Source of the DNA: Branchiostoma floridae
Taxonomy: Eukaryota > Chordata > Leptocardii > Amphioxiformes > Branchiostomatidae
Direction of reading: 5' to 3'
Assembly: GCF_000003815.2 (NCBI RefSeq)
Contig: NW_023365725.1
Coordinates: forward strand, 57,758-121,757
Length of the DNA: 64,000 nt
The translations under genes and the position numbers were made by a program. The notes under the pieces were generated by a model. That model saw nothing but the letters and a program-made list of their open reading frames with translations, had not been told where the DNA came from and did no database searches. Positions 6,740-62,670 of this stretch are shown here, one piece after another. The stretch's first letter is position 1, and each line of letters starts with the position of its first letter.

Positions 6740-6772
<33 letters not shown>

Positions 6773-28380: not shown

Positions 28381-28421
28381 TTACAGGAGGGTGCACTGCT
28401 CACCATCGTCATCTTTCGTAA
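28381..28421 (-). CDS. CaaX micro-exon of GBP gene A
   Basis: A 41-bp final exon after CCTTGCAG: TKDDDGEQCTLL then TAA. Joins in phase 1 to exon 29189-29321 at ATTT|GTAGGT. CTLL, with leucine last, predicts geranylgeranylation. Reading through the previous exon would instead end at a TAG at 29166 with no CaaX. Confidence 0.75.
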
Positions 28422-31400
28422 CTGCAAGGAAGTGAAAAGTGTCATTAGTTCGTGCACTTGACTAAAGCTAAGGGCACAACCCGCCGTACGTGTTATTTGT
28501 CCGTACGATTTTATTAGGCCACGTCCGCCACGTTTTTCTGAAAACGTGGGGAAGGAATGGCAAGAGCAGGGAGGGAGTACGTCTCAACGCACGTCACTCG
28601 CACGGTTGCGCAAGGTGTAAGTATGTGGTCTGCACGCCACGCCTGGCCGTGAGCGGTTGCGAGCATCGTTCGTTGCGCAAGTGGCAAGTGAGCTGTACGT
28701 AGGATCTCTGTTGGATTGTCAGGTTACCGTATGCAGGCCGTGCTGCTTACGTACGGTTTCCTTACTCACTCGCATTGGCTGTACAGGGCACGCGCGTCGC
28801 CCGTACTGGCTCGTACAGGGGGGTGAATCTGAAGCCCGAACGCAGAGAAAGTTTTGCATGCACTTAAAGTGCTACGCCGTGTCTGCGTGCTCCCAAATCC
28901 GTTGGATTCCCTACGAGTTCGTACGGAGGCGGTACTTAAGACTTACAGATCCAAAAGATTGCCCACTTTTTTACACGTAGACAGCATCCATTTGCACGTG
29001 TGGCGGGTTGTGCCCTTACCTTAATCGGTGTATCGTATATGTCAAAAAGAAGATATGGATTAAAAAAAAACAAGTTATAGGTTTGCAGTCTTAGAGTCTT
29101 GTAATGTACTAATACTATTAGCATTAGGGTCATTTCGTGAAATTTCTTGCTGAATGAGAAATATTCTATATGATAGACAGTGACCTACAAATGGATGAAA
29201 GTGGCCATAGAATTCGTCTCTTGTTCTCTAATTCCTTCTGCTTCTGTATCAAGTCTGCTTGCTCCTTCTCCATCTGCTCAATCCTCTTCGTCGTCTCGGC
29301 TTTTAATTTCTCGAGACGGTCCTGCGGTAGAAAGTTGATCGTTAATTCGATTTTTATAGGAAGTCAACAAGCGATGTAATGTTCATTCCAATCACTTTGA
29401 TGAGAGTACACCTGCAGTTGTGTTGACCCTAGCTGTCCTTTCTAACTCAAAAAGTCTCCAGATTGGGCAATGTGTTTTTAAGGAAAAGAAGGGTATTCAA
29501 AGATTTTGAGTGGCACTAAGATCTTTGTGCCGTCCGATACTGTGTAAGGCAACTCTAAAGTCAGGCCAGTAGGGTTAAGACTTGCGTAGACGGCTGGGAG
29601 CTGCCCAGGTCCTACCTAATCCTACTCGGGGCTCCTACTCCGCATGGAGGCGTTATACCCCCCTCACATTATATACGATCTTCGGACGTTCTTCGCGATC
29701 GCAGGAAGGTCGGCTGATTTTAAGATCTTAAGATGGTCTTGCGTATTTTTCGCCTCAAAACTGTCCCACTCACATATACGCGAGGCTCGTGAGATCGACG
29801 GTGAATAAATCTATGATAATAAACCTCCCATGACCTCTTGCACGCGGACAAGGTAACACAAAACGTTCCTAAAAAAAGGCAAGAGATCAATAAATGTTGC
29901 TTATTTTGTTGTCGTAATCTTTTTAACCAATGAATGGAATGCGCGAGCATAATAGAAATGACGCAAGAAAAGAAAGTGTGTCACAAAGCCAGCCTACATA
30001 CTGCCACAGCGGCCACAATGTTAGAATTACCCTCACATTCCCAGAAATTCAATATTTGTAAACAAACGGAAGTCGGGCGAACGTCGCCCGAACGTTGCCC
30101 AACTGACGGGCGTTCGCCATCCGATTTGCGCTCGATGATTAATAACTATGTCTTTGCTCGCCTATCGGTCTTCAATCGTTGGATTGACGCAAGACTATTG
30201 ACCGATACCCTTGCAAGGTACGCACGATTTGTACGCACAATCTGCGACTCGGTAACGAGCTGTGCGATTTTGGAGATTTCCTTCGACTAGTCGCATATGT
30301 TAAGAACATGTTTCGCTGCACCGCGACCGTCGTAAGACTCCTGAAAACTGCCGGCGATCCCTAAAAATCGCAAGATGATCGTGAGAACACCGGACGTCTT
30401 ACTCACGAAAATGTCAATCAGAGTTCGTAAACTAGTCCTCCGATCGAATCGCGCCTATTGTGAGGGGGGTATTAGGAGGGGCGTGATATCGCGAGCCTAG
30501 GTCTTTCCGTGAACAAGGTGTACTGAGCAGACAACGCAAATTTGGAGGTATGTGTTGATGCCTTTAAAAACTGTCACTGAAATATATCAAAGTAACTGCC
30601 TTTCCTCACCATTGCAATTTTTGCCTGTTCCTTCATCTCTGCTTTCCGGAGGTCTTCAATTATCTTCCGTTCAACCTTAAATTGCTCCTCCATCTCTTGC
30701 TTTATCTGACATTAAAAGTGACAGTCATATTAGAGATGACAATCAATTAACATTTAAGACTTTTGGAAAACCATCTTAACGGATCCTATCTGCCGGAAAT
30801 TCGACTTTTCAATTAAATGTGATAAACTGAAAGTACAATAATTATTACACATTTTTACCCATACTTTTACCTTGTCAATCTGTTCCTCGTACTGCTGAAT
30901 CAGTTTCCTTAGATTTTCTTCTTGTGTTTGCTGTATGTCCTGTACTTGTTGGCGTACCTCCTGAAGCTCTCTCTCCACTTCCTTGGCCCGGAGCTCCGCC
31001 TCTTGTTCCCTCTGTTGTGCCTGCATTATCTAGAATATCGGGAGTAATACATGTTCTATATGTTCCGTAGAATCAATACTGCCTATCTATTAGAACTTTT
31101 GGCTAAAGTAAGGAAACCAAAGCATTTACAATCCCGAACCTTTAAGGTTTGTAGAATTTGAAACTTAATCACAACAAGAAACAGTAGACAAGGCAATCAT
31201 CACAATGCCCCTATGTTTGGGTCTCGTCACATCAATAGGAATATGACTAGAAAGACTGACATTTGCTCGTGAGCAAATACAGCATATTTCAATCCATCTC
31301 CATCCCCATGTAAAATGCCCTGTTACATTTTTATACGAGGGCATAGGAGCCAAAAATATACTTTTGTATTTAAAAAAAAAAGGCCATGTATACGGAAGCA

Positions 31401-34400
31401 AGTAATGTAAGCAAGAAGTGTTGATAGGATCTTGTGCGCATATGTCTAATGCGCCTCTGTTCCAAATGTCATTAGGTTATAATACCAGGACACAGAGGCT
31501 CAAAATATGTATTTGTTTTTAAAATGACCAAAAAAATTAATTAAGTAATTCTAAGACCTCTATAAAAATACGCCTTGGGTTATTTGCTATCTGTAACCCC
31601 CCTACCAAAGTTCAGCTAATTTGGCCCCAAAATGAAAAGGTTTAGCCATTTGAAGGTTTGGCGGGAGAAGAAGAAGAAACGCGACAAAAAGTATATTTCA
31701 ATCCATGTAAATCACCTCTGTCTGATATCCCTTGACCTTCTTCAGGCTGTCCTTCAGCTTCCCTGAGTCTTTGATCATCTCCTGCAGAACGACCCACTTC
31801 TCTGGACCACGGGCCTGCTTCTCGTACTGCTGACGTGCATCAGTCAGATCTCGAGTCAGCTTCTTCATGTCATAGTTTGCTGGAGGCAACTCTGCATGTT
31901 TTCTTGCAATTATTATACCAATGAAATGCATTTAATAACTAAATTTGTAGTTCATGAAAATCACAAATATCTCACATCGTTCATGCTTAATTCATTCAAG
32001 TATTAAATAGAGTGAAGAAGAACAATGTTTGTCACAAACTCTTACATCAACTGTTCAAAGCCTCAAACTGTTAACAGTGTGAAATACAGAAGGTCTGGTT
32101 GGGATGTCATCGCTGAAATGTTGGATTGACAATTCTATATTCCCTGCCAGCGGCCGACCAAAGAAATGCCAATGGTAGGCAGGTTTTTGATAGGGTCAGT
32201 CGAGTAAGAGGAAACATAGCCTTTTTTCTAGTCTAACCAACAAATGAAGGTTTACTATTACCTACTATGAGGTCATGATAACAAAGTACCTTCCATCTTT
32301 ATATGGACTTAACTGAAGTTTCCTAATTGGGTCCGACAAGCGTTCGAAGAGATCTTGGCAGAAACTCTTGGACAGTTCTCTGTTCTGCTGGATGTACTGG
32401 AGAAGCTCCCCGCCGGTAACAACGAACCCCTCCTGCTTCCTGGTCGTGCCGTCGGCTGCCACGTAATCAACTGAACGCTCCTCCCTTTGAACTGTAACAA
32501 CGAAATGTCGTAATTGGAGTATGGGAACTTTTTAAGCCATTTGTATGTCTTTTATTAATTGAATATACCAGCAAAGTTTAGAATGTGCTTACCCAAGCGT
32601 TTTTGCATTTGCTCGACCACAAACGTATTTTCCCTGTACTGATCCCCTGAGCTGATGCCAAAATGGCCGATCTTCTCCAGAAATATGTCTGTGACGTCAT
32701 TTAACACCTTCTTGTGGAGGTCCATGAGGGTAGGCTGGCTGGGAGGACTCCTGAGCAGAGAGATATAAATATACATTAACTTAGAAGGAGTGCCCTATCC
32801 GCGTCATTAACGCTACGTCATGTACCTCGTGACCTTGTCTGTCCGGATATATGTCATCAAAAACAGATTCATTCCCCCTTGATAAAAAGTTTCTCAAGAC
32901 TTAAAGTTAAACGGCACCTTGTATTTTGTTTCCGACGCCCCCGGGTCACGGGTTTGAGATGTTGTTCAGTTTCTTCACTTTCCTCCAATGGAACCTTTCC
33001 ATTGTTGGTGGCTGCAGCAATCTTGGCCTGCAGAATAGACAGAAATCAACTTTTTACCTCCTCTCCATGAAAAAGAAGATAACGTTTGGGACGTGTTTGT
33101 CTGTGTGTCTGTCTGTGTTTCCGGATATTTGTGGCCAGCAACCTTGTGGGTAGGTGTTAGGAAGACGAAGTTCAATGTAAATTTTGGGCGCCTTGGTATG
33201 TGACCTTGGTACTGCAGCAGAATTCGTTTTTTAAAATCTTTTGACCTGGATGGCTATGGTCTTTTGATTTTTTGGTGGCAGCTTATGATGTGAGGAATAC
33301 GTGATGTATGCTTGGGTCGCCTTTCAGGTTGTTCTGGAACTGCAGGGGCGTTTAGGTCAAAACCTTCTAAGGAGGATAACTTAACAAGGGAACGACAAAT
33401 TAAGATGATATTTGGTATGTGGGTAGCTTAGACGGAGATGTACATCATCAAGTGCAAATTATGCAAACTGCCAATTAATTTGCATAGCTAATGAGGAAAA
33501 GATATATTTGTAGTGTTTTCCATTACAGGAATCGAATACCTGTAATATATGTAGTTTGTGGCTGGTAGAACATTGACAGATACTAATTATGTAAATATGT
33601 CCCTGATTGGCATAAGTAATGTAAAGGTACCATAAATTCTTCTAACTGGCAAATGATTGGACAATCAACTTTGCAAGTTATCTAAAAGTGTACATAATAA
33701 TCTTAGTAGTAGGTGTGATAACATATTAGTAACCAAGAACGTAAATCAATATGCCAAAGTTATATTGAATATCCCTTACATGCATCTGATGTTTGTACGC
33801 CTTGACTGCCTCCTCAATGGCCCTGACCCGCATGACCTCTATGGTGTTCTTCCAGGTGTTGTCCAGAGTAGGGATGGAGTTGGGGTCATTGACCGCTTCC
33901 ACATACTGCTTGGCCATGATGCTGAGGGCTAAACCTGAGAGGGTATTATAAACAAAGACCGAACAGCCTACCATTTTTCCAGAATAAAGGTCTAGTCACA
34001 TAAAATGTGTACAGAATCACTGACAGCAAATCATTCTTTTACTCCGTGGGAAGAGTTACAGGGTTTATCACATTGATTGTCCTTTCTTACCACTAATAGT
34101 TGAGACCTTGTCGAAGCCCTTTTTTGCACGTGACTTCTGCAACAGCCACTCGGTGAGGTTTTCCACACCCTGGTTGAATTCGGGGTTCAGTTTCTCTGTG
34201 TGTTGAGCTATGTTGTTCATCACCTCCTTCTTCTCAGAAGGCCGTTCCAAGGTTTTACACTCAACCGATGGGAAGAATTTGAGGATTGCTCGTCCTACAG
34301 CGTCACTGGTTGACTCGGGAAAATTATCAGGGTCACTTTCCAGGACCTAAGGTAAACAGCAAAAACCAAGAAACTTTCACCTTGGTAGGATTCTTATAAG

Positions 34401-37400
34401 ATTGTGAATGAATGAATACAAAAGTGGCAAACCCGATTATGGACCACCTGATGTCTTTCTGGTAAAGTAGCAGATCATGTTTAGGACATTCTGGTTTGTA
34501 CATGAAGTTCCTGGGCAAAGAAAGAGCTCACGTAATGTTTGGGCCCTCCAACACCTTTTCGTTAACTGCAGAGACCTTTTTGATGGAAATTTGTTGAAAG
34601 TTAGACAAGAATTCAAGATGGCATTGATAGATCTTATGTTCACGGTGGCTTCTTCAACGCGAACATTAGTAAAACCATTACTGGCAATTCCAAATGTGAA
34701 CTACGAACACTCCATTTCTATGTACCAAGAAACTAAATTCCGCAAACATTTCCCCTTTTACAGTATATCACTTGTCTGACATCTATCCTCTCTAGAGATA
34801 CAGTAGTGAATCAGACATCGTATATCTTACCTCAGTAATCAGGTATTTGGTAGGAGTGATGTTTTTGCCGTTCTTATCCCGAAACTTCAGAGATGCGTCA
34901 CGTAACAGCCACAGGAAGTCTGGGAAGAACTCATGGAATAGTGACGTTTGTATCTTCTCTCCTTTTTTGACTGTTAACCCTTTAGCCAGTTGGATAAAGC
35001 ACCTGGTGAAATGTTAGATTCAACAAATGTCAACATTTTCATGCATATACATTGGATAATGAAAAATAATGGGTACGGCGGTGCAGAAAGGATCTTCATA
35101 GTAGTAGATAATGTCTTTATTGATGGATGTCATAGGTACCTTGCAGTCATACAGTTACCCATACTAGCTACATAGTTCATCTACTTACTGCATCTTTTCC
35201 AAATCTCCCTTGCATGGCACGTTGAGTGAGTTGTAGATGACCCGGGAGGACAGAAGTATGGTCAGCACCAGAATAGAGGCGTCCTGGACAGCACTAGCAG
35301 CTGGGGCGTCTGGAATTGACAATGATTCATTTGAACACTGAACACACGAAGCGATCAATGGATAGCCAAACATATTCTGTTCTTTAAAAAATCTGTTTGA
35401 TGCATAACTAGCCTGTGGTAACGAGTTGGTAAGTACAGGCTAAACTTGTATAGCCTACCTGAAACCGGGAGTGGTAAGACAAGGAGGTTTGATCGAACTT
35501 CCTTGGTCTTACTGGCAGTAGCTATAGCCTGGATGCCAAAGTAGGGCAAATAGATCTGGAATCATAAACCATCCCAACTCCAGGCTAGTACTGTAAATAC
35601 ATTTAAGTTCGCGGGGATTCAATTTCGCGGTAGCAGGGAAAAAAGGCTTTTCGCGGTGGTTGTTCGCGGTAGCACCATGCACCGTTGTCTCTTACTGCCA
35701 TGAAAAATGTTCGCGGTGGTTTTAAATTCGCGGTGAAGCGGCTACCACAAAAATCGCGAACATTAAACCACCGTGAAAGTTTCTGCATTTACAGGAGTAA
35801 GAAATACATTCACGTACCTATTCCTTCCGTGTCCAGCAGCACGATAGTGAAGTCCTTCCCCCGCAGCACTTTGGTGCCCATCCAGATACCAAACGTCTGG
35901 GGGTCCGCAAAATGGCCCAGCTCAAAGGCATCAGAAGTACCGAGTAACCTATATAATCAATGATTTTAAGAAGCAAGTTTGCATCTGCAGTACAGTTCTG
36001 CCGTCAGCAAGAATATCTTTTATTCCTTTTACTCAAAAACAGACAACAAACTTTCATGAAATCAGATGTCAGTGCCTACGCGTAGATGCACAATTTACCA
36101 TCCTGTCAAAATGACAAATTTTCAGTGCCATCGTAATCTTGTCTTTTAATGACACATGTTTCATGCGACCAACGTCACCCACCCAGGATCGAGGCGTGCA
36201 AATATCCTTTTCGTCTTACACTTATTTCTGATGGAATTCCATATAACCATCAGGTATACAATAGGAGTATCCTCACAGGATAGTTTGGAATAAGATGTCC
36301 AAAGATTAGATGTGATAGATTTTTCGGTGTACATGTAATGAATCTAACTACCGAAGGTTACGCCAGTGTATCTGTCCAGTATGGCAGCACGGCTATGGTA
36401 CTGTTGAGATTTACAAAACGGTGCAAATTGAAAATTTGATAATTGATATTCCGGGAAATCTTACCTGGATAGGATGTAGCTTTTCCCAGTCCGACAGGGC
36501 CCGCAGATCGCCAGGACACTCACTGGCTCCTCGATCCCCTCCAGTAGAGCCAGGGCCTCCTGAACGATTTGCAGGCTTGTCCGTTGGGCATCCTGAATCT
36601 TCTGTACTGCACCGGTGGACGCGTTGTACTTCATGTCGTTTGGTAGAATGAGCGGGATGGAAGAACCCTGAATGGTTGTCTCATCTGCCTTTGACGTCAG
36701 CTTCTCGACTTTGAACCCGAGCTTGGAATGTAACCACGATACGTCTGCCAGGACTAGATAGATAGCAATGTCATGCTAAAAAGGTATATTGTGGTAGCTA
36801 TAGTGGTCTACTCTGCGGTTGCAGTGGGTTGGGCACTCTGCATCAGCAATGAGTATTTTGCAATACGCATAAAACGATGAAAAGCAGAAAAAATTCAGAA
36901 TTTTTGGCAAGCCAAGTTGCTTGTCACCCCAAACAGTCAGATAATCTTTTTCATGCTCTCCATTCTTCACACAAAACATCAGAAGGTATTATCTACCACT
37001 ATCAAACTCACGTGTCTCCTTGTCTCTCATGCTAGGCCTGTTCGTCACACAATATGGTCCAGCGGGACTGTCATCACCTTGTGGGAGGTTTCTCTTCCTC
37101 ATTTTTCTTCCTAATAAAATGATGCACAGACGGACACAGAAAGACAGAAGATGTTGTAAGTGCGTAGATGATACATCCAGGTAATAAGATACGCCAAAAA
37201 GCAGTTACTTCAGCACCTGGATATGATTTTAGATTGGTCTGAAACGTCTGACCGTATCCAAAACCATATCCAGTTACTTTAGTAACAGCTTGTTTGAACA
37301 AACTATATATAGCTTCGCCAAAAAAGCAATCACACTTATTCTATGCTCATTTTCTTTAAAATACAGGTTATTGTTAGGATAAATGCAATCATATTTTACA

Positions 37401-38025
37401 GGTACACCATCGTTATAGTCTGCAAATACTGAAATAGGTTAATAGATTAGAAAATGTGGCGTGAAGCGTTCTTCACCCATGAACGGAAACTAAGGCCATA
37501 TTGACATACGTTGTAAAAAAAAACATTGTATCTGACCTTGTGTATCTATAGTTGCAAAATAACTCACCAAATCATAAAGAGCCAAACACTACTTCTTAAG
37601 TTATGATAAAAAGCAAAAAATACCCTCCATTGTCATCGTATATGGAGAATCCTAATAAATAAGATAAATGAATATCATTATTGGCAAAAGTAAAATCACT
37701 ATGAATAATGCATCGAAATCTACTCACGCTCATCCCTCTCCAAATCCTCGACTTCTTTTGCCAGCTTGGTTTTGTTTAGGGCTACCAACAGTTCTTTCAA
37801 CAATCCACAATTTGCCTCACCAATCTTGTTATCAGCTTCCAGCATATGAAAGATTTCTTGTGGTGTCGCATTCTGAATTTTTGCTGTGGGGATATGACGA
37901 TGCAACAAAAGTCGCAAACTTTTGACTTGGTCTTGAGATAAATTTTCACTAATATTCAAATAAAGCTTGTCACGAGGGGATAGGTCAAACTTCACTGAAG
38001 TTGAGGCATCCTGTTCAGACGCCAT
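28381..38025 (-). CDS. GBP gene A: DED-GBP fusion GTPase with CaaX box CTLL
   Basis: Sixteen exons: 37728-38025, 37012-37110, 36465-36753, 35818-35948, 35189-35309, 34831-35002, 34091-34346, 33780-33934, 32918-33027, 32593-32750, 32290-32491, 31716-31902, 30871-31029, 30610-30705, 29189-29321, 28381-28421. They sum to 2607 nt, 868 aa plus stop, with phases agreeing at every junction. Domains: death-effector domain about 12-95, basic linker 100-132 (RRKMRKRN), GBP GTPase with GPCRTGKS (217-224), QTFGIWMGTK switch, DTEG (268-271) and LRD (346-348), helical GBP C-terminal part with ARGPEKWVVLQEM, coiled coil rich in E/Q/K, and terminal CTLL, predicted geranylgeranylated. The Met that starts B and C is replaced here (GAC GTA TCG), so translation must begin upstream. 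Probably a dynamin-like GTPase coupled to death-fold signalling. Confidence 0.88.
28469..29018. mobile_element. Short inverted-repeat element in last intron of GBP-A
   Basis: Termini TAAGGGCACAACCCGCC and complement; interior rich in GTACG and CGTACG. About 550 bp, no transposase. It separates the CaaX exon from the coiled-coil exon. Confidence 0.7.
29656..30471. mobile_element. Non-autonomous element, PIF/Harbinger-like
   Basis: A 13-bp inverted terminus TACCCCCCTCACA with TTA on both outer flanks (3-bp target duplication). The subterminal part is rich in GATCG and CGATTTG. Intronic in GBP-A. The family is suggested only by the TTA duplication. Confidence 0.55.
31247..31320. repeat. Dispersed repeat, diverged copy 3
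   Basis: GACATTTGCTCGTGAGCAAA, TACAGCATATTTCAATCCAT: related to 1217-1325 and 5783-5896. Intronic in GBP-A. Confidence 0.45.
35591..35794. mobile_element. MITE rich in TTCGCGGT units
   Basis: About 200 bp, inverted termini CTGTAAATACATTTAAGTTC and CTGTAAATGCAGAAACTTTC, interior of repeated TTCGCGGTGGT and its complement. Located in the GBP-A intron between exons 35189-35309 and 35818-35948. Confidence 0.7.
37012..37110 (-). CDS. Linker exon joining DED to GBP
   Basis: A 99-bp symmetric phase 1-1 exon with TTATTAG acceptor and CACG|TGAGT-type donor (ACAC|GTGAGT). Translates to RRKMRKRNLPQGDDSPAGPY and a short tail ending MRDKET. Basic and proline-rich, no known domain; the RRKMRKR cluster could act as a localisation signal. 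No equivalent exon was seen in genes B or C. Confidence 0.7.
37728..38025 (-). CDS. Death-effector domain exon of GBP gene A
   Basis: Starts MASEQDASTSVKFDLS nine bases after a TTTACAG acceptor, so a 5' UTR exon exists. DED pattern: LYLNISENLSQDQVKSLRLL (helices 1-2), LLHRHIPTAKIQ, EIFHMLEADNKIGEANCGLL (helices 3-4) and LLKELLVALNKTKLAKEVED; the RxDL motif is degenerate (KTKL). Ends in phase 1 at GAGC|GTGAGT, which fits the linker exon. Confidence 0.8.
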
Positions 38026-40114
38026 GATGGGTCACTGTAAAGAGAAATCATGAAAGTGTTAGTGGAAATGTAAGGAGGTTGAACGTTTTGCCAAGCAACT
38101 CCGTTCTAGTATGCTTTCTGGTCCCAACGCTGACAGGCGTCGTTCATCTGCCCAAATAGAAATAGCTTCCAGCCCTAATGTTGCTGCATGATTTCAGCCG
38201 GTGGCCGAGAAATTGGGTGCAAATTCGCCGGGGAAATCCTGTCTAGATGTTTATTTTTATTACGTCACATAAATTTCATTTCCTTCTCGGATTTATCAGA
38301 GCAAAAAAATAGGAGAGATGGGCGACAAAATAGAAATAATATATTTGCCAAAAAAGTCTGAGGTGAACATACGGCCTTTCATCACTTAACAACATGATTC
38401 ACAGGTTTTCCCGCTACGTATGTAATTAATAAACGAATGCCTGGTCCACTTAAACAGTATGGCAATTTCCCGTTTCGTAATTAAACAGAGGGATACTACT
38501 TTGGCAAGGGTACGCTCGCAAGACGACAGTTACTGCCTAATTCATTGGTAATGTCGTTGACCTGCCAACGGCGATCTGATTGGTCCTCGCTAAAAAGTTA
38601 ACGGGTGGGGGCTTCACTTTGCAGCGCAGACTTTTGGAACCCAAGGCAAACCTCCATGTATGCACGCCCACTTTCACGCATCACGATGACACAAAACATC
38701 CTGTTGTTTACTTAGTTCCCTTTTGATACTCAGAAAAAGCCTCTTAAACACACAATAGCCAGTTATACGTAAGTCTTATTGTTAAAAACACCGGAATTAT
38801 ATAATTTACTCTTCAGATATGCAAATCAAAGCTTCATTTTATTGCGTACAGTACATCTTTGTTTAAGCTACCCTCTACTCAGTAAGTTCCTTTTTTTACT
38901 CACTTATTCTCCTGGTTTGGAAGTACCAATATCACACAATAGGGGGACATAATCGACTATTATCTTTGTCTTACCAACACCTACCCAAATACCAAATATT
39001 GTCACAACCTATTTTTGTTATAACTAGCCACAAATATTCAGCAGCACACATAGACAGACGCAAACACAAGCGCATGCACAAACGCAACAAAAGTACGTGC
39101 TGTCACACATGAGCCTACACAATAGAACAGACCAAACAAGAAGTCCCTGTGTCATCTAGTTCAAATGCTGCATGGCAGTTCCGCTGTTGTGTCTGTATAG
39201 CGGGCGTGTTCATGTGACTTTGGGCGTGAAGGACCCAAAGTCAGTCAATCATGGCATGGCTAATGTTGACTAATTATAAGTTTGCTAAAAGGAATAGTAT
39301 TCAGTTGGAAGTCTCAGCTAAATATGTACCACATTATAAGCCCTTGTCACGCATTCAAAGCATTCCCATGGTCTTGCCCTGACCATTATCCGACAAATGT
39401 CACCGCTTGGAGTCTAAACACTCTTAGACTAAAACTCGGGCAAGGTAATCACTGTTCCTTTCACAAAAGTGAATGTACAACCTATCCGTGCTGCATTGTG
39501 TACTTTATTTGATAACCATGATGTTTTGTGCGTCATTCAACAGTAAATATATCTAGGATAGAACTCTCTTCAATAGATCGCTCTAACTTTAATTTGCCAA
39601 AGACCATCTATTGTGGAATTCGTGATTTTACACATCTTCGAGGTATGTTCTTACTCAGCCGCCATTTTTCGGTCAATATTGACCATGTTAAAATCCTGGT
39701 TGCTATCAACTCTACAACAGCCTTATACGAGAATGACGGTCTCAGCCACATAAGGCACATCTGTAAGCTGGCTCAAGTTGAACATGGGAATTAAAAAAAC
39801 TACTGCTCACCTTAGTGTTGGTAGCGATGTCTTGGTTACCCTTGGCTTCTTCAGTTTTCTTCAATACAGTTAATACAATCCAAAAGTTTAGACGTGTGGC
39901 AAATTCTTTGGCTCAGCTAGAAAATCAGTCGTCTCTGTCGTCTAAGAAGTTCAGTTTCACATCCAAAACTCGATTTTATTTGATATCATTTGATTTAAAA
40001 CACAGAAGCGTTAGATGGACTGCCCTTGGCTGCGTCCAAATCCGAATACGTGGCAAAGTCGACCAGGACAACATACACAGTGTGTCACGACGGAGCCAAG
40101 GGGGAACATATGAT
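38026..40114. other. Upstream region of GBP-A
   Basis: No exon recognised. The first bases are an acceptor, so the promoter lies further up. A kappaB-like GGGGAAATCC with one mismatch to consensus is at 38218-38227; the conserved block of genes B, C and D is not present near the DED exon. Confidence 0.4.
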
Positions 40115-42218: not shown

Positions 42219-45200
42219 CTGCAAAGAAGTAACAAACACTATTAGTTACTGTAATCAACCCATGAGTGTGACATGTCACCTCAAATGTGTTGTGTTCTGT
42301 AGTAGTACAATTATTGCAAAATATCGATGTTTTGGTATTTCAGCACAATCCTATATGATAGACAATGAATAAGCGATACATATTTTGCATAGTTGTTAAT
42401 ATTGTACATGTCCCTACAGTTCTCATTATGATACCAAACAATTACTTACAAGGAGTTGAAGGTAAATCATCGATAGCTTTGCGCAGAGATTCCAGCTCTT
42501 GCCTGGTGACGTCTAACTCGTGCTGCTGTGCTTCTAACACGCATTTCAGCAACAGCTCCCGCAACTTGGATAGTAATTCCTCCTGAAGAATGAATGTGAT
42601 GAAATGCTGTCAATTCAGGTTTAAAAAGAAGCGAAGAAGTGTTCCAATTAACCTAAATGACAGATTGTTTTAAAACTGGTACGTCAAGAAGGACCTCAAT
42701 TGGCGTCATTAAAAGAATACATGTATATGTTGCTTTCCCTGCGTATGAATATTGTGACAGTGCTACATCATGCGTTCGACATTTGTTAAACAACTCATAG
42801 TGCACGTATGTGATAGTGTACTATAAGGGAAAATGTGCCGTGGTGCTTTCAATTGACATTGGCATTTGCCATCATTGTTTCCTGTACCTGCATAGTAATT
42901 TAGCATCAACATAACTTGCTCATCGGCAAGAGATTTAGTAGCTTAATTGGTAGTTGTATCGTTACAGGCTAACTTCAACTTTTGACTTGCTATCGTGCCC
43001 ATGTGGCGCAAGGCCTAGGTTAAAAAGCTTTCTTCCTTATAAAAAAAAACTTTACTTTGCAATCACTGCTATTTCTTACCATTTCCTGTTTCATTATTTC
43101 TCCCACCAGTTCCACTACTAGCTCTTGGAACTTCTGTTCACGTTGCTCCTGCGCCTCTTGTTGCACCTGCGATTTATCAGGAAAGAAAAAGTATGTCATG
43201 TCGAAGAAGGTCAGACATCCATGCAAAACGAAACGTCAAATAATAGTTACCGAAACAACAGGATAGACTTTGTAAATGGTCAGACGTTTCGGGTAGCATC
43301 CGCTGCATCAATCAGTCGCTGTATCAATGACACAACTTTTGACCAACTTGTTAAACAAATCAATGCGTAATCACTGATGATTGGTCCATTAAGTGTCCCC
43401 AAAAGTACAATCACACATTTCTGCCAGCTTAAAGATAAAATGAAATACACGAAATACATGCTTGTACCTCCTCCATCATCTTTTTGTGCTGCTCCTCCAA
43501 TTTCTGAAGAATTTCCCTCTGGGCCCGAGACATGTCCTGTGCCTGCTGGCGCAGCTGCTGCAGTTGTTCCTCTCTTTCTTTAGCCCGACGTTCTGCATCC
43601 TTTGCCTTCTGCCGTGCCAGCATCAGCTGAAATGTGTTGACATACTTAATTATGTCGGATGTACATTTTTCCTTAGAACACATGTTCTGTAGTTTCTTAA
43701 CGATTTAGATCATATTACAAAATTTCTACTTATCTGATATTGAAGATGTGTTTTCTCGGACTGTCTATAATATTGTCATTTTTGTCGACAAAAAGATCTA
43801 GAAAGCCTAACGAAATGGCAAAATGTGGTAAAATACGTCCAAAATAAATTCCTGGTTTAAGGTGAGTAAATGTGTATTACAAAACATTCAGCCAGAAGTA
43901 AATAGGGACAATAATCTAGGCTTGCTACATCGCTTTGCAATACCTTAAAATGTGGGATTATACCTTCTTGTGATGTTCCTCAATCTTCTTAAACTCAGCC
44001 TTAAGCTGCTCACAGTTTTTGGTCATCTCTTGCAGAACAACCCACTTCTGTGGACCACGGGCCTTCTTCTTGTACTGCTGCTGTGCACGGCAGACCTCCA
44101 TTTCCAACTCACTGTAGTCGTAGTCTTTGGCAGGAAAATCTACGCGTTTCCTAGCAAACAAAAAAACAGTTGAAATACATGAAAATCATATGATTTGGAA
44201 TTCACTATTAAGAACGTAAATCTCAATAGAAGGAGGTCACGATGTTGAAGGCTCAAATGACCTTCCTTTTTTCAAAACAAGTCTGAGTTACCTAACCGTG
44301 ACTAACAGGCGTTCAGAAAGCTTCTGACAGAAGATCTTGGAAGTTTCTTCGTTCTGTTGGATGAAGTGGAGGAGCTCTCCGCCAGTAACGTCCGACCTGA
44401 TGGCGTTGTATTCTGTACGAGCCTCTCTTTGAACTGTAAAGAAACAAAAATGTGCTGAAGTATAACACTTTGAACAGCTTTGATCCTGGTGTGTTTGTGT
44501 TCTTTGACAGGAATGTTATCATTTGATAATGATGAAAACTTTCAGGTCGCATTTGTTCAATAATCATGATTGTGTTGATGGCATTGTTTCAAGGTGAAAC
44601 TACGCGTCTATTATTTAGCTAGGCACTGTAATGGGTCCATTAGTTTCCAGAGACTGTATACATCCTTATAAGTTTTGAAACTAGCCAGATTCAGCGGTAG
44701 AGTTTCAAAGGTACTTACTCAGACGTTTTTCCAATCGGTCTACAACAGTCCTATTCCCATGGCCCAGATCCTCTGCGCTGGTACCAAGATGACCAACCCT
44801 CCTTATGAGCTTGTCTTTAACTTCCTCGAATTGTTGATTGTGGAGGTCAATGAGCGTCGGTTGGCTAGAATAGAAGAGAGTTCCGTCGCTTGCAGTCTCC
44901 TCCAATGGAACTTGTCCATTCCCAGTGGCTTTAGCAACCCGGTCCTACAGAGCATTCGTTTCGCAAATGCTTTAGAATACTGAATGAGGTATGCCATTGT
45001 CTCGCCTAACTATATAATTGTTCTTTAAGTGGCACTACCGATACGTGGTGAAATGATATACAGTGTAACAGTGGTACGTATGTATAGTATTACGCTAGTC
45101 ATCGTTGATACACATTATAATCACATCTGTGCGTCATGTCTTCTGATTGTTGTAGACAACGCATCAGCAAAAATAATGAAATCACAATAAAATGTGAACA

Positions 45201-48200
45201 AACGCTATATAAGATACAATTAACCAACCAATATGTCTGACATTACTCTGTGTACTGCTAAATCTGTCCCCTTGTAGTTGGGATATACAATGACAGCTGA
45301 TATGGAATTACAATCGTTATAGATTAACAACATATCAATATTTAATAGCCCTTACTTGCATCTGGTGTTTGTACTCCATAACCGCCTTCTCTATAGCCTT
45401 GCCCCACATGACCTCCACTGTGTTCTTCCAGGTGTTGTCCAGGGCAGGGATGGAGTTGGGGTCATTGACCGCTTCCACATACTGTTTTGTCATGATGCTG
45501 AGGGCCAAACCTGACAGAAAATTACACACATTATATTGATAACAGCTGAAAAGTTTGCCAGACTCATCGTGTATTCAATGAATCAAACGTAGTATATAGA
45601 TCCATGCCAGTAAACAGTTCATCTATCATGAAATGTTAGTTACATTTATACACCTGTCCTACTCACCATTGACAGTCGATCCCTTGTTGTAGCCCCTCTT
45701 TGCACGTGCCTTTTGCAACAAACTCTCGATGAGCTCATCAACTCCCTTGGTAAACTTTGGGTTCAGGCTGTTTGTGTGCTGAGCTATGTTAGTCATAATT
45801 GTGGTGTCGCCAGAAGGACGTTCCAAGGTTGCGCATTCAATTGATGAGAAGGACGCAAGGATGGCCTGTCCTACATCCTGGCGTTGAAGGACCTAAGTTT
45901 AAAGGATAAGTAATGAACGACGGAGGCAGGTATATGACTGTTGCATTTTATGACTGTTGCATCGTAGTCAGGAAGCAAGATAATCAAGGACCTATGAATC
46001 TCTCATATGCACGTAGTACCTTTATGGCAAACTACACTAATATATTTATGCTTTCCTATTCTATTATAAAAATATTGTATCCCATGTGTTGATAACGTAG
46101 TACTGCATACGTTATACCCTACCTTAGTCACCAGGTACTCAGTAGGATCCATTTCTCTGCCGTTCTCATCCTCCATGTTCAGAGACACGTCACGTAGCAG
46201 CCACAGGAAGTCTGGGAAGAACTCACGGAATGCTGACACGCCTGACTTCTTTCCCCTTTTCACTGAGATTTCGTCAGCAAGATTGACGAAGCACCTAAAA
46301 TATTTTGAATGAAAATAATTGCAGATGTGTAACAGATGATATATAAGTATCATGGGCTATATGAAAATAGGGAGTTCAACTTATAATACAAAATATGCCT
46401 TCAACAACAGATACTAATGGATGTAATTTGTGATTTGTAGCCATACCGTTGTCTGTAACGTTACATGGGCTGTAGATAGTTCTAGCTACTTACTGCATCT
46501 TTTCCAGATCTCCCTTGTATGGTACATTTTGTGAGTTGTAGATGAGTTTAGAGGACAGCAGAATTGTCAGCACCAGGATGGAGGCGTCCTGGCCAGCACT
46601 CGCTCCGGGTGCGTCTGTTAGAAGTATTGTTTCGTATGAACATCAATCAAACATTAAGTATATATATTCCCCTTTATCCATTGTCACACCGGTAGAATGA
46701 TAAGCTTGGTAGAACATTCCAAAGAAATGGAAATGTCACATCATTTGATGTTAACGTTCCACAGCTTATTTTCGAGTAATATGAAAATTATACTAGTGCC
46801 AGAATGCTAACGTCCATTTAAAGGTCAAAGGATGTGAAAAACAAAACAAAAAAATAAGAATCTATTATTACTAAGTTTTTTATTTGCACGTTCGCATCCA
46901 TATAATCAAATCAACGTGGCTTTATGACTAATCTAGGACAAGTCCAGGAACAAAACACCAGGGTAGCTCTGAACAAACCCACATACCTATGCCCTCCGTG
47001 TCAAGCAGCACGATAGTGAAGTCCTTCCCCCGCAGCACCTTGGTGCCCATCCAGATACCAAACGTGTGGGGGGACATGCGGTGGCCCAGCGCGAAAGCAT
47101 CAGCTGTACCCAGCAACCTGGTACACATTTCAAGACGCATGCCGGTCAGTATAGTTTTGAAATGATTATTCGACTTCTGGATTTTTAAAATGTAATTTGT
47201 CTATCAAAACTAAACTTGGTACCATAGGAAAGGGGATCACACAAGCTTTCAATTGATATATAATACATTGAAATTGATGCAGAAATCTGATAAACCAAAG
47301 TTGATATGCAAAACTTTATGTCCCGAGTTTAGTTAGTGCATGCTCGAATGTTTCATGTACCCAGTACATCACTGATATAAGAAGATAAAAGACATATGCA
47401 GGTGGTATTTTGAGCCCTGTTGTGTGAAAGACAATTAATCTTGACACTCGCTTGCTGGATATAAACCACTTGATAAAGTGTAACAGTTTCTCGCGAAATA
47501 CAATCCGAAGTCATAAAATGTCATTGCAGCATTGATAGAAACGATCTCCTGGCGACCAAGATGAATAAAAAACGAATACAAGCATCCAATTTGCACCAGT
47601 GTGCAATCATGCGGATAGAGAGTATTTAGTTGCCATTCAACAATTCAATCAAACATGCATTATTGGTCATTTGTCCGCAGACACCTTGCGATCGCGAGCA
47701 ATGTGACAAAGGGCCTCAAGCTCTGTTGGAAGGTATAACAAGCCTCTGTGAGATGTACATTGTATTGGTTTCTTGCGCCCCTCAAGCCAAATGGTTTGCT
47801 CCATTTACGTCAACAAAATAGCTTGACAACGGTTTGTATTACTTTGTCAACAATTTTCGACCCACCTCTTGTTATTTTCACCAAATTAAAAGACTTATTT
47901 TTTCTATTTTTTGTAGGGTATTGGCGGTATAAGAATATAAAGATTTGGTCGGATCATTTCTATGCTGTCTTAACCTGTATATCCATGAGTTCGGGAGCAT
48001 ATTTTATTTCAGCAAAGAATATCAACATGTGGAGAAGAATATGTCTTGAAACATTATCTTGGGGTAGAATTTTGGGATATACTGGTAATTAGGCCACTGT
48101 TCCTGGTATCATGGTAAGCCTACATTATTGATCACACACTATGTAGCAGGTTATTAGACAATTGATATTCCATGCAACGCTACCTGGACAGGATGTAGCT

Positions 48201-48461
48201 TTTCCCAGTCCGGCAGGGCCCACAGATTGAGATGACACTCACGGGCTCCTCGATCCCCTCCAGTAGTTCCAACGCCTCGGGAACAATCTGTGCGCTTTCC
48301 CGCCGTTCGCCCTGTACTGTCTCTACTCTACCAGTGGAAGCATTGTACTGTAGGTCGTTTGGCAGAATAAGCGGGATGGACGAACCCTTAACACGTTTCC
48401 CACCTTTCTTCGGCTTCAGCTCCTCCACCTTGAAACCGAACTTGGAATGCACCCCCGGCAT
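42181..48461 (-). CDS. GBP gene B: guanylate-binding GTPase with CaaX box CIIS
   Basis: Thirteen coding exons: 48184-48461, 46987-47117, 46494-46614, 46123-46294, 45667-45892, 45356-45510, 44719-44944, 44292-44433, 43964-44150, 43468-43626, 43080-43166, 42450-42582, 42181-42218; 2055 nt, 684 aa plus stop, phases consistent. GTPase motifs GPCRTGKS (81-88, keeping the Arg used as internal finger in GBPs), HTFGIWMGTK, DTEG (132-135), LRD (210-212). The C-terminal half is helical (LALSIMTKQYVEAV; KARGPQKWVVLQEM) and then coiled coil. It ends ADDGCIIS, a CaaX box predicted to be farnesylated. Mammalian GBPs oligomerise and coat pathogen or vacuole membranes; that role is inferred here. Start chosen at MPGVHSKFGFKVEEL, the position shared with gene C; an upstream start exon at 49033 is possible. 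Exon 44719-44944 corresponds to two exons in A and C. Confidence 0.88.
44719..44944 (-). CDS. Fused exon of GBP gene B (intron absent)
   Basis: One 226-bp exon codes for both VAKATGNGQVPLEE and SQPTLIDLHNQQFEEV, which are split by an intron in gene A (33027/32750) and gene C (54080/53704). A pyrimidine-AG tract (TCTCTTCTATTCTAG) in the middle looks like an old acceptor now read as SDGTLFYSS. Confidence 0.8.
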
Positions 48462-51155: not shown

Positions 51156-53166
51156 CTGAAAGGAAGCAACAAGTATGATGAGTTGGCGATGAAGATCGTG
51201 GTTAAAAGAACAAATTTGCCATAATGTCCTGATTTCGACAGTTGTGCGAAAGACAAGTTGGTCTAGATCTTAAGACGTTGGTATAGGGGATTAATAACTA
51301 CTTACGTGGAGCTGGTGGAGCTGCAGTTTTTTCCATAACTCGACCCATCATGTCCAACATATGCCTGTTCATTTCTGTCTGTTGCTGCTGCATGCCCATC
51401 ATCACTTCCATCATCTTGGCATGTTCCCTCTCACTGCGATCCTGGTAGTTATATTTTTTAGTTAGCTAAACAAATGATGTTTTATTCACGATGACGAAAC
51501 TGTTTATAACAACATATTGTTTAATGAAAAGAATGCTGTGTTTATTAAGGTCGTAGAATGAAATACAAACAATAATCTAACACTGGCCTTCGCTTTTAAG
51601 TCCAACTTTTTGTGTTCAGTTGGCGATATGGCCCAATACATATGGACATAATTGTTGCCAGGTTGTCATTATGAATAAACTTGTTGATACGTAAGTTGTC
51701 GTTTTCGTATCTCACTTTTGTTATTATCTAATGTCCGGGGCTCAATTGTTATACTAAAGATAAAACCAATTGTTAGTTAAATGCATAAAGAGGTTCTTTT
51801 TGAAATCAGATGTTTGCCTGAAAACTATCTCATAATCGCCACACTGTCAAATTACTACCTTTTCTCGTTGAGCCTGTTCCTCCCTTCGTGCATCTTTCAG
51901 TTCTTGGACCTTCTTCTCCTCCTGCCTGAGTCGCTCCGTCTCTTGTTGCTTCATCTAAAATTAAGCCAGTGCATGTAATAATAGAGAGGGAGATTTTCAT
52001 TGGCACAGCGAAAGTACAGAGATCTCCTAAATGTTTTACAACTATTGATATAATAATTTAACTAATAATTACAAGGTTCACGAGTACATTACTATATCAG
52101 GATTCACTACCTCCCATAAAAGGATTAACAAGGCTGGATTCACAACCCCTCATCGTTCTTATTATGTAGTAGTCAACTGAATAATAAATTCTGTTACCGT
52201 CTCCATCTGCTCCTTGTTCTGCTGCAGCACTTTCTGCAAAGTTTCCTGCTGGGCCTTCTCCCTGTCCTTTGCCTGGTTAATCAGCTGCTGCATCTCCCTG
52301 GCCTGTTCCTTGGCTTTGACCTCTGCCGCCTGTACCTTCTGTTGTTCCTCCAATACCTGAAATAAAGATGATATCAAGATGTACACTTAAAGCGTTTCTT
52401 GGTTGATAGCTTACAGGATTTAGATAGCATAACATGTAAAGGAAAGGAGACTAAATGTATTTAAGCAGCCTGACTTTACACATGTAGTATACTTTCAGTC
52501 GGAGAAATAAACAGACGTCAATGAATTTTACGGCTCTTAGAGATGTAAGAATTACCTCTTTCTGATATCCCTTGATCTTCTCAAAGTCGACCTTCATCTT
52601 CTCTATGGTTTTGGTCATTTCTTTCAGAACAACCCACTTCTCCGGACCACGCGCCTGCTCGTTGTACTGCTGGCGTGCATGGTCCAGCTCTTTCATCAGC
52701 TGTTTGAAGTCGTAACCAGAAGGAGGCGACAATGCATGTTTTCTGGCAAACAAACCGATAAAATACATACTATTAGATAATCAATAAGACCCCATAGTCA
52801 ACTAAAACCACTTTAAAAACTATATAATACTCTTTGTATTTCGGTACAGAAATTACACTGAATAATACACAATTAAACAACTATCGGTTGAGGTTAGGAT
52901 ATTATAGTAGTCATTGGAAAATAGCCTCTGTCTTAAGCATCCAACGGAAGATTTTAGTCACCTTATTGGGTCAAACAAGTATTCAAAGAGCTCTTGACAG
53001 AAGCTCCAGGAGTGTTGCTTGTTCGCCTGGATGTACTGGTGAAGCTCTCCGCCAGTAACGAAGGATCCCTTCTTCTTCTGGATGATGCCGTCTTCTGCCA
53101 CAAACTCGACCGTACGCTCCTCTCTTTGAACTGAAATTAATATGCAAATAACGAAGAAGAATATGA

Positions 53167-53238
<72 letters not shown>

Positions 53239-56200
53239 CGTTTGGACGCTTTTTGTACATGCGTAACACATGTACCTTCAATAATTTTGTCAGACTTCTA
53301 ATGCACATTAAGGTAACAGTATTTTATTTAGGTCTCAAACCATTGATTTCCAAACATACTCTGTAATCTTAGAAATATCATAACGTTAAATTGATTTCCT
53401 GTTCACATAGCTAGAATGGTCAACAGATAATCGGATGTGTATATATCTACCTCTGACGTTTGAGCACAGTCATATCTGTGCAATTGCGCAACTTCTCATT
53501 ACTTTATTAGCGTTTTTTGTTTTAGGTTATCCAAATGTTCAATGCTGCCTACCCAAGCGTTTTTGCATTTGGTCCACCACCGCGTTGCGCTCCTGAGGAC
53601 CCTGTTTCTCTGAGCTTATGCCAAAATGGCCGACCTTCTCCACAAACATGGCTGTGGCGTCTTTGAACGCCGCGTTGTGGAGGTCCATGAGCGTACTAGG
53701 TTGTCTGCACAGAGAGGTTAGAACAGTTGGAATGTGTAAGACTTATTTAATAAACATGGCATAAGATATGTTTGGATAGGATTTATTAGACTGCATGTTC
53801 AGCCACTAATGAATCCAGTCAAATGCAGCTATGCTTAAACCATATGTATGCCTGTTTTCTTATCACTACCTATACTATCTACTATCTAATACACTTTCGG
53901 CTGGGTATTGCGTAAACTTATTCGTCTGGATATAGTTTGGTAGATGATGTGAAACACATCGTCATAAATCATGCAAAACACAATGACTAAATATTATAAA
54001 ACATTTCCTTACTTTTTATCGGGTGAAGGACCATCTTCCTCCAACGGGATGCCATTCTTGGTGGCTTCAGCAACCTTTGCCTGACGAGTAAATCAAAATT
54101 CACAATGGTTAGACATAATCAGTATCCATTATAATTTCACGTCATTCGTAAAGCCACAAATCACCACTGAAAAACAATAATGTTTCACTAGTGTCTTTAA
54201 TATCACGAGCTGGCACTAGACAGGAAAAGCTTTACTGTCTATGACGCTAGTGGTAAATTTTCAATGAACCCCACCTGCATCTGCTTGTTGTACTCCGCCA
54301 CCACCTCCTCAATGGCCCTGCCCCGCATAACCTCTATGGTGTTCTGCCAGGTGTTGTCCAGGGCAGGGATGGCGTTGGGGTCATTGACCGCTTTCAGATA
54401 TCCTTTGGTCATGATGCTGAGAGCCACACCTGGGAAAATCATATGCAAAGTCTAACAACCAACAAGTAAGCGTTGTTCTTGTCTTCAAATTCATTTATAT
54501 AAACAAAAGTTAGCACAAAACGAACATGTACAGTAAACAACTTTTCTACGACAAAGAATTGGAAAATCTTAAAGATGTCGTTAACGTCGAATGTTCTCCT
54601 TCATCACTTACCATTAACAGTTGAGGCCTTGTCATAACCTTTCTTTGTACGTGCCTTGAGCAACAACGTCTCTGTGAGCTCATCTACCCCTTTGTTGAAT
54701 TCTGGGATCAGGTTGTCCTTGTGCTGAGCTATGTTCTTCATCACCTCCGTGTCCCCAGAGGGCCGTACCAAGATGGCACACTCCACGGATGGGAAGAATG
54801 TGAGGATGGCCCGTCCTACTTTGTCACTTTTTGACTCTTCGAAAGCATTGGGATTGCCATTAAGGACCTATATATAAAATATCATCCATCAAAGCTGTGT
54901 TATATAACCTTAAAATTTTCATTTCATACTGACGTGACGCATTTCAAAGCAATGCACGCAATGCAATACATCTTCCATCTACATTCATTGATACGGGACG
55001 GTGCAAATCCTGTTTCCTTGTCCCTTTCCACTTTCAATATTGTATGTTTAGCCCTGTATGTTCTCAGAGAGATACGAAGTGCATAGAAAAAATTCCAGAA
55101 TAGGGTGTGTATTGTAGTTTTAGGGCTCCACCATTACACTTATAGTGAACTGATCTGAACATACTAGGCCGAAATTATGTTCAATGGAACGTAAGGGGGG
55201 CTTTGACATTTGCAGGAAGTTCATTCCACAAGTTAACAGCTGCATGACATTATTCCGTCACGTATTTGTGATACTGTCCCATACAATCTTCGCGGAAACC
55301 AAAACTTCACTTCCACTGCTTGTAAAAGCTGAAAAGTATCAATATATCCTTCCAACCTTCAACTGTTAACTTGTGGGATGAACTTCCTGCAAATGTCAAA
55401 GCCCCCCTTACGTTCAACATTTAAAAAAAGGAGCTGGACTCATTATTTAACAAGCCGACAAAACACTCCTATTTCTCTCATGGCTTAGGACGCTCCACAG
55501 TTCATCTTACAAGGCTCCGTCTAAACTTCAGTCGGTTAAACTACCATCTATTTCAACACCACTGAATTGATTATCCTACATGTAAATGCGGCTATCGTTG
55601 TGAAACAACTGAACATTATCTCTTACACTGCAAACTCTATACCAGCCAAAGACGTTCTCTGTTATCATCTGTCTCCAACATTAAAGACCTAAAGCAGCTC
55701 AACGACAGTACAAATAAGCTCGATCTTTACTGTTATACCCTTATATCCATTGTGCAGGTAGATTCTCCTAATTGATTCAGTACCAACTATCTTGTCTAAA
55801 TTCACCTTATTTATCTATTTATGTAAATATCTATTTAAGTATTTAGTTATTTATGTATGTACGCTATTTACTACTTTTGTTTTTGCTTATGTTTTGAGTA
55901 GGAGGCTGTATATAAGCATGTATATGAAGCTTTTTGTCTAATACTCTTAAAATATATGTGAATAAATACAAAGTGGCGACATGCGGTTTTCTGGCGACAT
56001 AAATGATAAAAAATAATAAAGATGTCTTGCCTTAGTCACCAAGTATTCTGTTGGTGTCATTTCCTTGCCATCATCATCCTCCATCTTCAGAGCCACGTCA
56101 CGCAGCAGCCACAGGAAGTCTGGGAAGAACTCACGGAATGCTGAAACGTCTTGCCCCTTTCCTTTTTTCACCGTGATTCCTGAAGCCAACTGGACGAAGC

Positions 56201-59200: not shown

Positions 59201-60579
59201 AGCAAAAGTGTATTATGACCCCCAAAAAGGCCCCCAGAGAGCCTGCTATGGAGGCTAGTGTGTATATATATCTTCTTGGTTGAAATAAGCCTCCGGACAA
59301 GGATTCACCACAAACGTACGTATTATTTTCCGTGGTGCTGGTAGTGCACCGCTGACTAATGTTTTTCTATACGCGACAGGCATTCCTCATGTCCGGGTGT
59401 AGTTACTGTCAACATTTGACTGCCTATAGACCATACCAACATTTTGACTCGCTAGAAAAGTAAACTACAGACTTATAGACTGAAGACATTCCATCTTTTA
59501 TCCTTTTGCCTAAACCGTAAAGGCACGGCCATTATCGGCGATTTTTTGGTGGTTGGATTTTCATGGATTTTCTATGGAAAGCTTTTACGCCACAAGAGTC
59601 AAGACAGCTGGATTTTCGTGAACGTTAACACATTCAAGACTTAATGGCAAATATCTTCTGTCTTAGACCTAGCTGAGCTAATATACGACGAAAATGTCAG
59701 GGCTGTCAACAAATGAAACATCTGTGCCAACAGGCTCATGATTTCGACAAGAACAACGTGGCATAAAGAAGTAACTATATGACATGTAAGGCCTAATAAA
59801 AAAGCTGATTGTGTTTTCGATTAGGGTCCTGAAAAAATTAAAGTGGGTAGGTATACATTATTTTTTTATCCCTTTTTCAAACTTTTGGCCGAAATGATCC
59901 AACAAATGTACTTTAACAACGTAAAACAACATCAGCCATTCAGGGCATCTGTATGTTCAACATTATATTCAAGTTGAACTATAATGGGGGTGTCAACAAA
60001 GAGGACCTAGGCTCAAAGAGTTTCAATTAAAACAGGCATGATGAGAGCATGTTGAAAAACGTGTCTCTTGCTAGCGATGGACCAGAAAAAAGTACTGTCT
60101 GCAGCTGCGCAGGAGTCCGTTCGGTAACCAAAAACACAACATTTTTCCTAAGTCCAATTAAGACGGCAAGCCTTGATATAAATAAGAAAAGTTAGCTACC
60201 CTTGTGAGTTTGGTACCATGACAACACAGCAAAGGCACCATGATACATGTAAATGAGGTGCGTAGCAAATTTGGCATTATAAATGTCCATTGTGGCATTA
60301 CCTGGACAGGATGTAGCTTTTCCCAGTCCGACAGGGCCCACAGATAGAGATGACACTCACGGGCTCCTCGATCCCCTCCAGTAGTTCTAACGCTTGGGGA
60401 ACGCCATGTAGGGTAGCCCGTTGTTCGTCCTGTATTTTCTCGACAGCACCGGTGGACGCGTTGTACTTCAGGTCGTTCGGCAGAATGAGCGGAATGGATG
60501 AGCCATGGACGGGTTGTCCACCTTTTTTCGGCTTCAGCTCCTCGACTGCGAACCCAAACTTGGATAGTAACCCCGACAT
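51130..60579 (-). CDS. GBP gene C: guanylate-binding GTPase with CaaX box CPIS
   Basis: Fourteen exons: 60302-60579, 56854-56984, 56376-56496, 56031-56202, 54612-54867, 54275-54429, 54013-54080, 53553-53704, 52962-53130, 52556-52742, 52198-52356, 51859-51954, 51306-51441, 51130-51155; 2106 nt, 701 aa plus stop, phases consistent. Starts MSGLLSKFGFAVEELKPKKG five bases after a TTCTCAG acceptor. GTPase motifs as in gene B: GPCRTGKS (81-88), QTFGIWMGTK, DTEG (132-135), LRD (210-212). The helical part has ARGPEKWVVLKEM, then a coiled coil with a Met/Gln-rich stretch (MMEVMMGMQQQQTEMNRHML) and a Pro-rich tail to CPIS. The exon at 56031 uses a GC donor. The 3.3-kb first intron is filled by transposon sequence. 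Likely a prenylated GTPase of host defence, inferred from family. Confidence 0.88.
53168..53236. repeat. AT dinucleotide microsatellite
   Basis: A long (AT)n tract in a GBP-C intron. It produces false Ile-Tyr ORFs on both strands. Confidence 0.95.
55187..55415. repeat. 51-bp inverted repeat around a LINE remnant
   Basis: 55187-55237 and 55365-55415 are inverted copies with one or two mismatches (GTTAACTTGTGGGATGAACT and onward). The right copy encodes LWDELPANVKAPLT, a typical LINE tail, so the left copy is an inverted piece of the same element. Confidence 0.8.
55365..55800 (+). mobile_element. LINE fragment in GBP-C intron
   Basis: LWDELPANVKAPLT, then in a shifted frame RLRLNFSRLNYHLFQH, then TCKCGYRCETTEHYLLHC, the C-x-C-x3-C...H...C end of non-LTR elements. 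Frames are interrupted. Sits in the intron between exons 56031 and 54867. Confidence 0.75.
57417..58482. mobile_element. 1.07-kb inverted-repeat element in first intron of GBP-C
   Basis: About 75-bp terminal inverted repeats starting CGCGGTAGAAAACCTGTCAC (57417) and ending in the complement at 58482. The interior has three copies of an 18-bp unit GTGCTGGTATTATACTGT (58316-58371). No transposase. Confidence 0.8.
59025..59271. repeat. Large palindrome, about 92-bp arms
   Basis: 59045-59136 and 59164-59256 are inverted copies (CCTCCATAGCAGGCTCTCTG; TACTGGGTCGCTGATTGCTG) around a 27-bp GC-rich loop. Located in GBP-C intron 1; probably a MITE. Confidence 0.8.
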
Positions 60580-62665: not shown

Positions 62666-62670
62666 TGCAC

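Follow-up and report, generated by a model that had tools for sequence, protein, structure and literature searches.

A guanylate-binding GTPase gene of Branchiostoma floridae with an N-terminal death effector domain

Death-fold GBPs described so far and the lancelet gene

Human GBP1, GBP2 and GBP5 are guanylate-binding proteins (GBPs) that carry a CaaX box, and to our knowledge none of them has a death-fold domain. The gene analysed here, gene A, lies on the minus strand (38025..28381) of a 64,000-nucleotide stretch of the lancelet Branchiostoma floridae (assembly GCF_000003815.2, contig NW_023365725.1, positions 57,758 to 121,757; hereafter the window). It shares with the three human proteins a G domain, a helical domain and a CaaX box, and places a death effector domain (DED), a module that serves to recruit cell-death enzymes, in front of them. 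According to the available excerpts of PMC4932187, zebrafish Gbp4 carries a C-terminal CARD, signals through Asc and requires GTPase activity; a figure legend of that paper names FIIND, too, among the domains of Gbp3 and Gbp4. The initial annotation of this DNA had already pointed out that some fish GBPs contain other death folds, and Gbp4 bears this out. Like gene A, it combines a GBP GTPase with a death-fold signalling domain, but its CARD is C-terminal, whereas the DED of gene A is N-terminal, and the two fusions are likely to have separate origins.

Two further groups of proteins are comparable. Amphioxus has been reported to contain DED-NACHT, DD-NACHT and DED-DD caspase genes (PMC2575513 and PMC3196919, in excerpt), in which, as in gene A, death-fold modules have been shuffled onto innate sensors or caspases; the partner there is NACHT or a caspase, whereas in gene A it is a GBP, and the words GBP and guanylate never occur in the main text of PMC2575513. 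Invertebrate TRADD-N proteins fused to GBP GTPases have also been described (PMC8195603), and these resemble gene A in pairing a GBP with a death-signalling adaptor module in invertebrates. Their adaptor is, however, the TRADD-N of the DEDD2 clade, usually with an adjacent DED, and the excerpts of that paper do not describe a DED-GBP without TRADD-N. The TRADD-N-GBP fusions (PMC8195603) and the amphioxus DED-NACHT genes (PMC2575513) are the nearest to gene A in the papers examined; no description of a DED-GBP was found in the titles, abstract openings and portions of text examined, which cover part of the literature.

Architecture and conservation of gene A

The splice model of gene A has 16 exons and a 2607-nt open frame that encodes 868 amino acids and a stop, with matching phases throughout, and it reads, in order, DED, basic 33-residue linker exon, complete GBP and the CaaX box CTLL, as the initial annotation had proposed. 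Exon 1 (37728..38025, minus strand like all coordinates of this gene) contributes 298 coding nt from the start ATG (38025-38023) through the DED proper (residues 21-97, 37735..37965) to a phase-1 end at a GTGAGT donor. Searched against Pfam, this exon matches the DED profile PF01335 at E=3.8e-15 and 56.3 bits (cut-off 35.9; 49.9 bits within the whole protein), which upholds the original domain assignment; the runner-up family, PYRIN, reaches 21.7 bits and stays below its cut-off of 22.9. Sequence matches in the PDB include the DEDs of caspase-8 (1.6e-8) and FADD (0.0015). The linker, exon 2 (37012..37110), is 99 nt long, symmetric in phase (1-1) and encodes 33 residues with a net charge of +4.

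The GBP begins in exon 3 (36465..36753), which has GTA (Val) where the paralogues B and C of the same window have their start ATG. Exons 4-14 span 30610..35948 (exons 4-8 at 35948-35818, 35309-35189, 35002-34831, 34346-34091 and 33934-33780; exons 9-14 at 33027-32918, 32750-32593, 32491-32290, 31902-31716, 31029-30871 and 30705-30610). By alignment and position mapping, the P-loop GPCRTGKS (residues 217-224) is at 36479..36502 in exon 3, the DTEG motif (residues 268-271) at 35822..35833 in exon 4 and LLRD, which contains the RD motif (residues 345-348), at 34897..34908 in exon 6. Exon 15 (29189..29321) encodes a C-terminal part that is presumably helical by analogy with the model of a relative, P0006. 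Exon 16 (28381..28421) supplies the final residues, CTLL (28395-28384) and the stop (28383-28381), and may be compared with the C-terminal end of the closest public protein, P0002, which is FTKDDDGKQCTLM.

Both GBP domains are recognized in the protein, namely the N-terminal GTPase domain (PF02263, E=2.5e-45, residues 192-446) and the helical C-terminal domain GBP_C (PF02841, E=6.2e-9, 36.1 bits, cut-off 24.3), and no CARD appears among the Pfam matches at E<=0.1. The GxxRxGKS P-loop, the switch-I Thr, DTEG and RD, which we take to be the catalytic motifs of GBPs, all align with human GBP1, and CTLL is, at the level of the motif, a predicted prenylation site. The predicted full-length fold of P0006 matches GBP2/GBP1; its fold search listed structures of GBPs and atlastins, the top rows of which show a high rmsd, and the model has a beta-hairpin insert within the helical part, in which it differs from human GBP1, GBP2 and GBP5.

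Since the exon boundaries were placed by eye and GT-AG was sought in doing so, its presence at all 15 introns (15/15) shows no more than that the model is possible; the support for the model comes from the relatives. The acceptor of exon 12 was picked to agree with the reading of the paralogues, an alternative acceptor having broken the frame. P0002, from Branchiostoma floridae x japonicum, matches gene A at 84% over the whole query and reads ERDERRKMRKRNL across the DED/linker joint, as gene A does, before continuing into the GBP. The two proteins are 73.5% identical over the DED, 68.3% over the linker, 85.6% over the G domain and 86.8% over the C-terminal part. The DED-linker unit is duplicated in P0002, which also extends further at its N-terminus than gene A does. 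The joint and the linker type are kept in P0005 and P0006 (B. lanceolatum), while in P0007, P0009 and P0010 hardly anything separates the DED from the GBP, and the join falls at the same place. Entries with DED and GBP carry the names of B. floridae, B. lanceolatum, B. belcheri and two hybrids. None from outside Branchiostoma was among the proteins listed (120 of 132 matches in a first protein search, 37 matches in a second and a DED-only search), and the vertebrate rows among the matches listed in both protein searches had no DED, in keeping with the earlier statement that vertebrate GBPs lack one. The DED-only search (query P0006, residues 1-110) had 645 candidates, of which 4 passed at E<=0.001; these 4 are all DED-GBPs of Branchiostoma, one of them being the query itself. 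The sensitivity of this search was low, P0007, P0009 and P0010 being missed.

Death-fold exons in Branchiostoma GBPs and the rest of the window

Judged by its protein sequences, gene A is one of a Branchiostoma set in which two GBP subfamilies carry DED, Death or both, a pairing of DED and GBP that can already be seen in the precomputed Pfam domains of public databases. The first protein search had precomputed DED and GBP domains in 6/120 listed matches and Death and GBP in 5/120, all from Branchiostoma, and the partial P0019 gave an additional, broken DED match. The second had 18 Branchiostoma proteins, 8 with DED and 3 with Death, 2 of these with both. These counts refer to database clusters, not genes, and scoring was limited to the candidates with the most shared words (7994 in the first search, 7995 in the second). 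Five of the eight subfamily-2 DED proteins fall just below the Pfam gathering score of 35.9 (P0122 35.6, P0123 35.4, P0128 32.8, P0131 32.9 and P0137 34.0 bits; E 1.1e-8 to 8.3e-8). Death domains, N- or C-terminal, occur in the Branchiostoma GBPs P0008, P0018, P0023, P0025, P0039, P0135, P0138 and P0139; P0138 and P0139 hold DED and Death on one GBP, the same pair as reported for caspase-1/2. Fibronectin type III is also among the precomputed domains of P0023. A CaaX box ends all subfamily-1 DED-GBPs (8/8, counting gene A and the partial P0019) and is absent from all subfamily-2 DED-GBP models (8/8), among which P0139 (561 aa) looks cut short.

The G domains of the two subfamilies are about 27% identical (22.8-30.9%, 56 pairs). 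The DEDs of the B. belcheri subfamily-2 proteins P0122 and P0123, however, are 54.0-63.2% identical to those of subfamily 1 (14 pairs) and 29.9-34.5% identical to the other DEDs of their own subfamily (12 pairs); holding the DED type of the other subfamily, they suggest that death-fold exons have been exchanged. Slow evolution of the domain does not account for this likeness, since among subfamily-1 proteins the DED diverges more quickly than the G domain (mean identity 69.7% against 77.0%, 21 pairs). The Death-domain protein P0008 has the linker type of gene A (54% over 35 residues, E=6e-7), which points to swapping of N-terminal modules. On a G-domain tree of 42 rows, 41 of them different, the distribution of the DED needs 2 changes (bootstrap range 2-3), whereas well-supported branches force only 1, which fits either one origin of the DED in subfamily 1 or more; 25 rows fall into no group, including P0019, later seen to hold the broken DED match. 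On these protein models, the DED exon appears to have moved between GBP subfamilies.

The splice acceptor at the GBP start suggests how the fusion may have arisen. Following GCAG, gene B reads ACATGCCG and gene A ACGTATCG, and the start ATG of gene C stands at the same point after its acceptor, in a different sequence context; the GTA at this site, noticed in the initial annotation, is confirmed by the comparison. If a death-fold exon came to lie ahead of a GBP that had its original start codon immediately past the acceptor, the phase-1 joint would have made an in-frame DED-GBP; the old ATG of the GBP is now GTA.

Paralogues B and C, both GBPs without a DED, were located by tblastn on the minus strand at 42448..48461 and 51307..60579, respectively, with approximate ends (matches reach residue 668 of 679 and residue 693 of 701). 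The public B. floridae proteins P0004, P0022 and P0035 correspond to genes A, C and B, with matches of 93%-100% identity, only those above 90% being counted. Other DED or Death exons, for instance upstream of B or C, were not found in the window by tblastn with 13 module queries (best E=0.16 besides the gene A exon). A (TA)35 run (53168-53237) lies near an exon of gene C. Elsewhere, a 3.6-kb palindrome (17397-21028) with arms at 17397-17933 and 20492-21028 (537 nt, 99%) and further inner arms surrounds an N run (19064-19218), and is either a mobile element or an assembly artefact. Inverted copies at 3864-7477 and 13534-17055, 83-91% complementary, hold calcium-binding EGF exons on opposite strands and are apparently two divergent EGF genes. 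A tandem array of a 210-bp unit (62668-64000, 90-94% matches) is broken by an N run (63352-63569). Rfam, at gathering thresholds, had no match within the window.

A possible death-signalling GBP and the competing readings

We somewhat favour the view that gene A is an intact DED-GBP gene, formed by fusion with an upstream exon, whose product is a membrane coat that nucleates death-fold assembly. Its architecture, its GTPase and CaaX motifs, its conservation in the genus and the signs of exon exchange were computed; the fusion route, transcription, prenylation, oligomerisation, membrane target, partner and outcome we infer. GTP-driven oligomerisation and prenyl anchoring would gather the protein on the membrane of a pathogen or vacuole, and the crowded DEDs would nucleate a death-fold assembly with DED-bearing lancelet partners, an inflammasome-like platform that would end in gasdermin or apoptotic death. 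The initial annotation had likewise suggested clustering of DEDs by the GTPase, with cell death or NF-kappaB signalling as the putative result. The excerpts of PMC3196919 describe an amphioxus ASC with a DED in place of the PYD, a caspase-1/2 with DED and DD, and a caspase-8 that interacts with the DED of FADD1; a section title of PMC10155998 links caspase-1/2 to the cleavage of gasdermin E, and the excerpts of that paper put forward a DED-based inflammasome-like complex as a hypothesis. The partners would most likely be ASC and caspase-1/2 (DED+DD), FADD1 and caspase-8 being less likely, and our best-supported guess is that the GBP coat nucleates DED-ASC or caspase-1/2.

Several observations weigh against this view. 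The N-terminus is predicted, as the initial annotation had anticipated, to be a death-fold helical bundle closest to DEDs, but the model has a middling confidence (pTM 0.63), and Foldseek found no match to it at E 0.001 or better. Aligned to caspase-8 DED1, the gene A DED has no counterpart of the E/D-RxDL charge triad. K85-T86-K87-L88 stands at the R-L-D-L of the RxDL site, and Leu39 at the Phe of the hydrophobic patch, a FADD F25-type position that is varied among relatives. These replacements make filament competence uncertain, and the missing triad makes canonical recruitment of FADD or caspase-8 doubtful. RxDL is conserved among DED proteins, but its role may differ from one to another (PMC4558505, in excerpt), so that the loss of the triad is compatible with binding. 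The joints 37728|37110 and 37012|36753 were predicted from genomic sequence, and the public DED-GBP fusions look like automatic predictions, some of which could be annotation joins. Finally, the linker exon contains an in-frame ATG (37102-37100) at which P0004, the public model of gene A, starts, omitting the DED. Translation without the DED is therefore possible, contrary to the initial claim that it needs the upstream exons.

One alternative is that the DED serves for inhibition or as a decoy: GBP oligomers would sequester DED proteins, as FLIP or PEA-15 do, and restrain death during infection. We regard this as unlikely: zebrafish Gbp4, with its CARD, activates rather than inhibits (PMC4932187, in excerpt), and the second DED type, found in subfamily 2, has R-x-D-[YF] at the RxDL site in 6/6 rows, so that at least those GBPs keep a triad-like site. 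A little less likely still is that the main transcript begins with another 5' exon and is translated from the linker ATG, the DED belonging to a minor isoform. The start of P0004, the length and symmetric phase of the linker exon, and the absence of a listed DED from most Branchiostoma rows (120 of 132 matches listed) speak for it, but P0004 is poorly supported at both ends, starting in the linker and reading past the exon-12 donor of our model at its 3' end, and the DED-linker joint is kept in P0002, P0005 and P0006. As to exon 1, an in-frame TGA (38032..38034, minus strand), right after an acceptor-like TTTACAG, closes the frame upstream (the stop-to-stop ORF begins P-I-M), and the DED Met is therefore the first possible start on this exon. 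That exon prediction produced the fusion by accident, from a DED exon that belongs to another gene or is a relic, is very improbable, for although the boundaries were hand-chosen on genomic sequence, P0002 has the same joint, six further subfamily-1 DED-GBPs (counting the partial P0019) have the same order, and the DED exon is free of internal stops, the subfamily-1 DEDs being 62.7-90.8% identical (21 pairs).

The DED-GBPs of lancelets suggest a sensor wired directly to cell-death signalling. How the signal of a GBP coat reaches caspases is actively studied in mammals; where the GBP has a death-fold domain of its own, the link from sensor to caspase becomes a single polypeptide that is directly testable. 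The set offers natural domain swaps (DED, Death, DED+Death or none) on similar GTPases, and the apparent trade in death-fold exons between the two subfamilies points to a route by which sensors gain outputs. More tentatively, lancelets may possess combinatorial GBP death platforms, in which interchangeable DED, Death and DED+Death exons have been traded onto two or more old GBP subfamilies, in part through a splice site located where the GBP begins; the pathogen-coating GTPase itself would then be the receptor and would nucleate the assembly of ASC or caspases. If true, such a combinatorial set would unite a job that vertebrates split among GBPs, NLRs and ASC.
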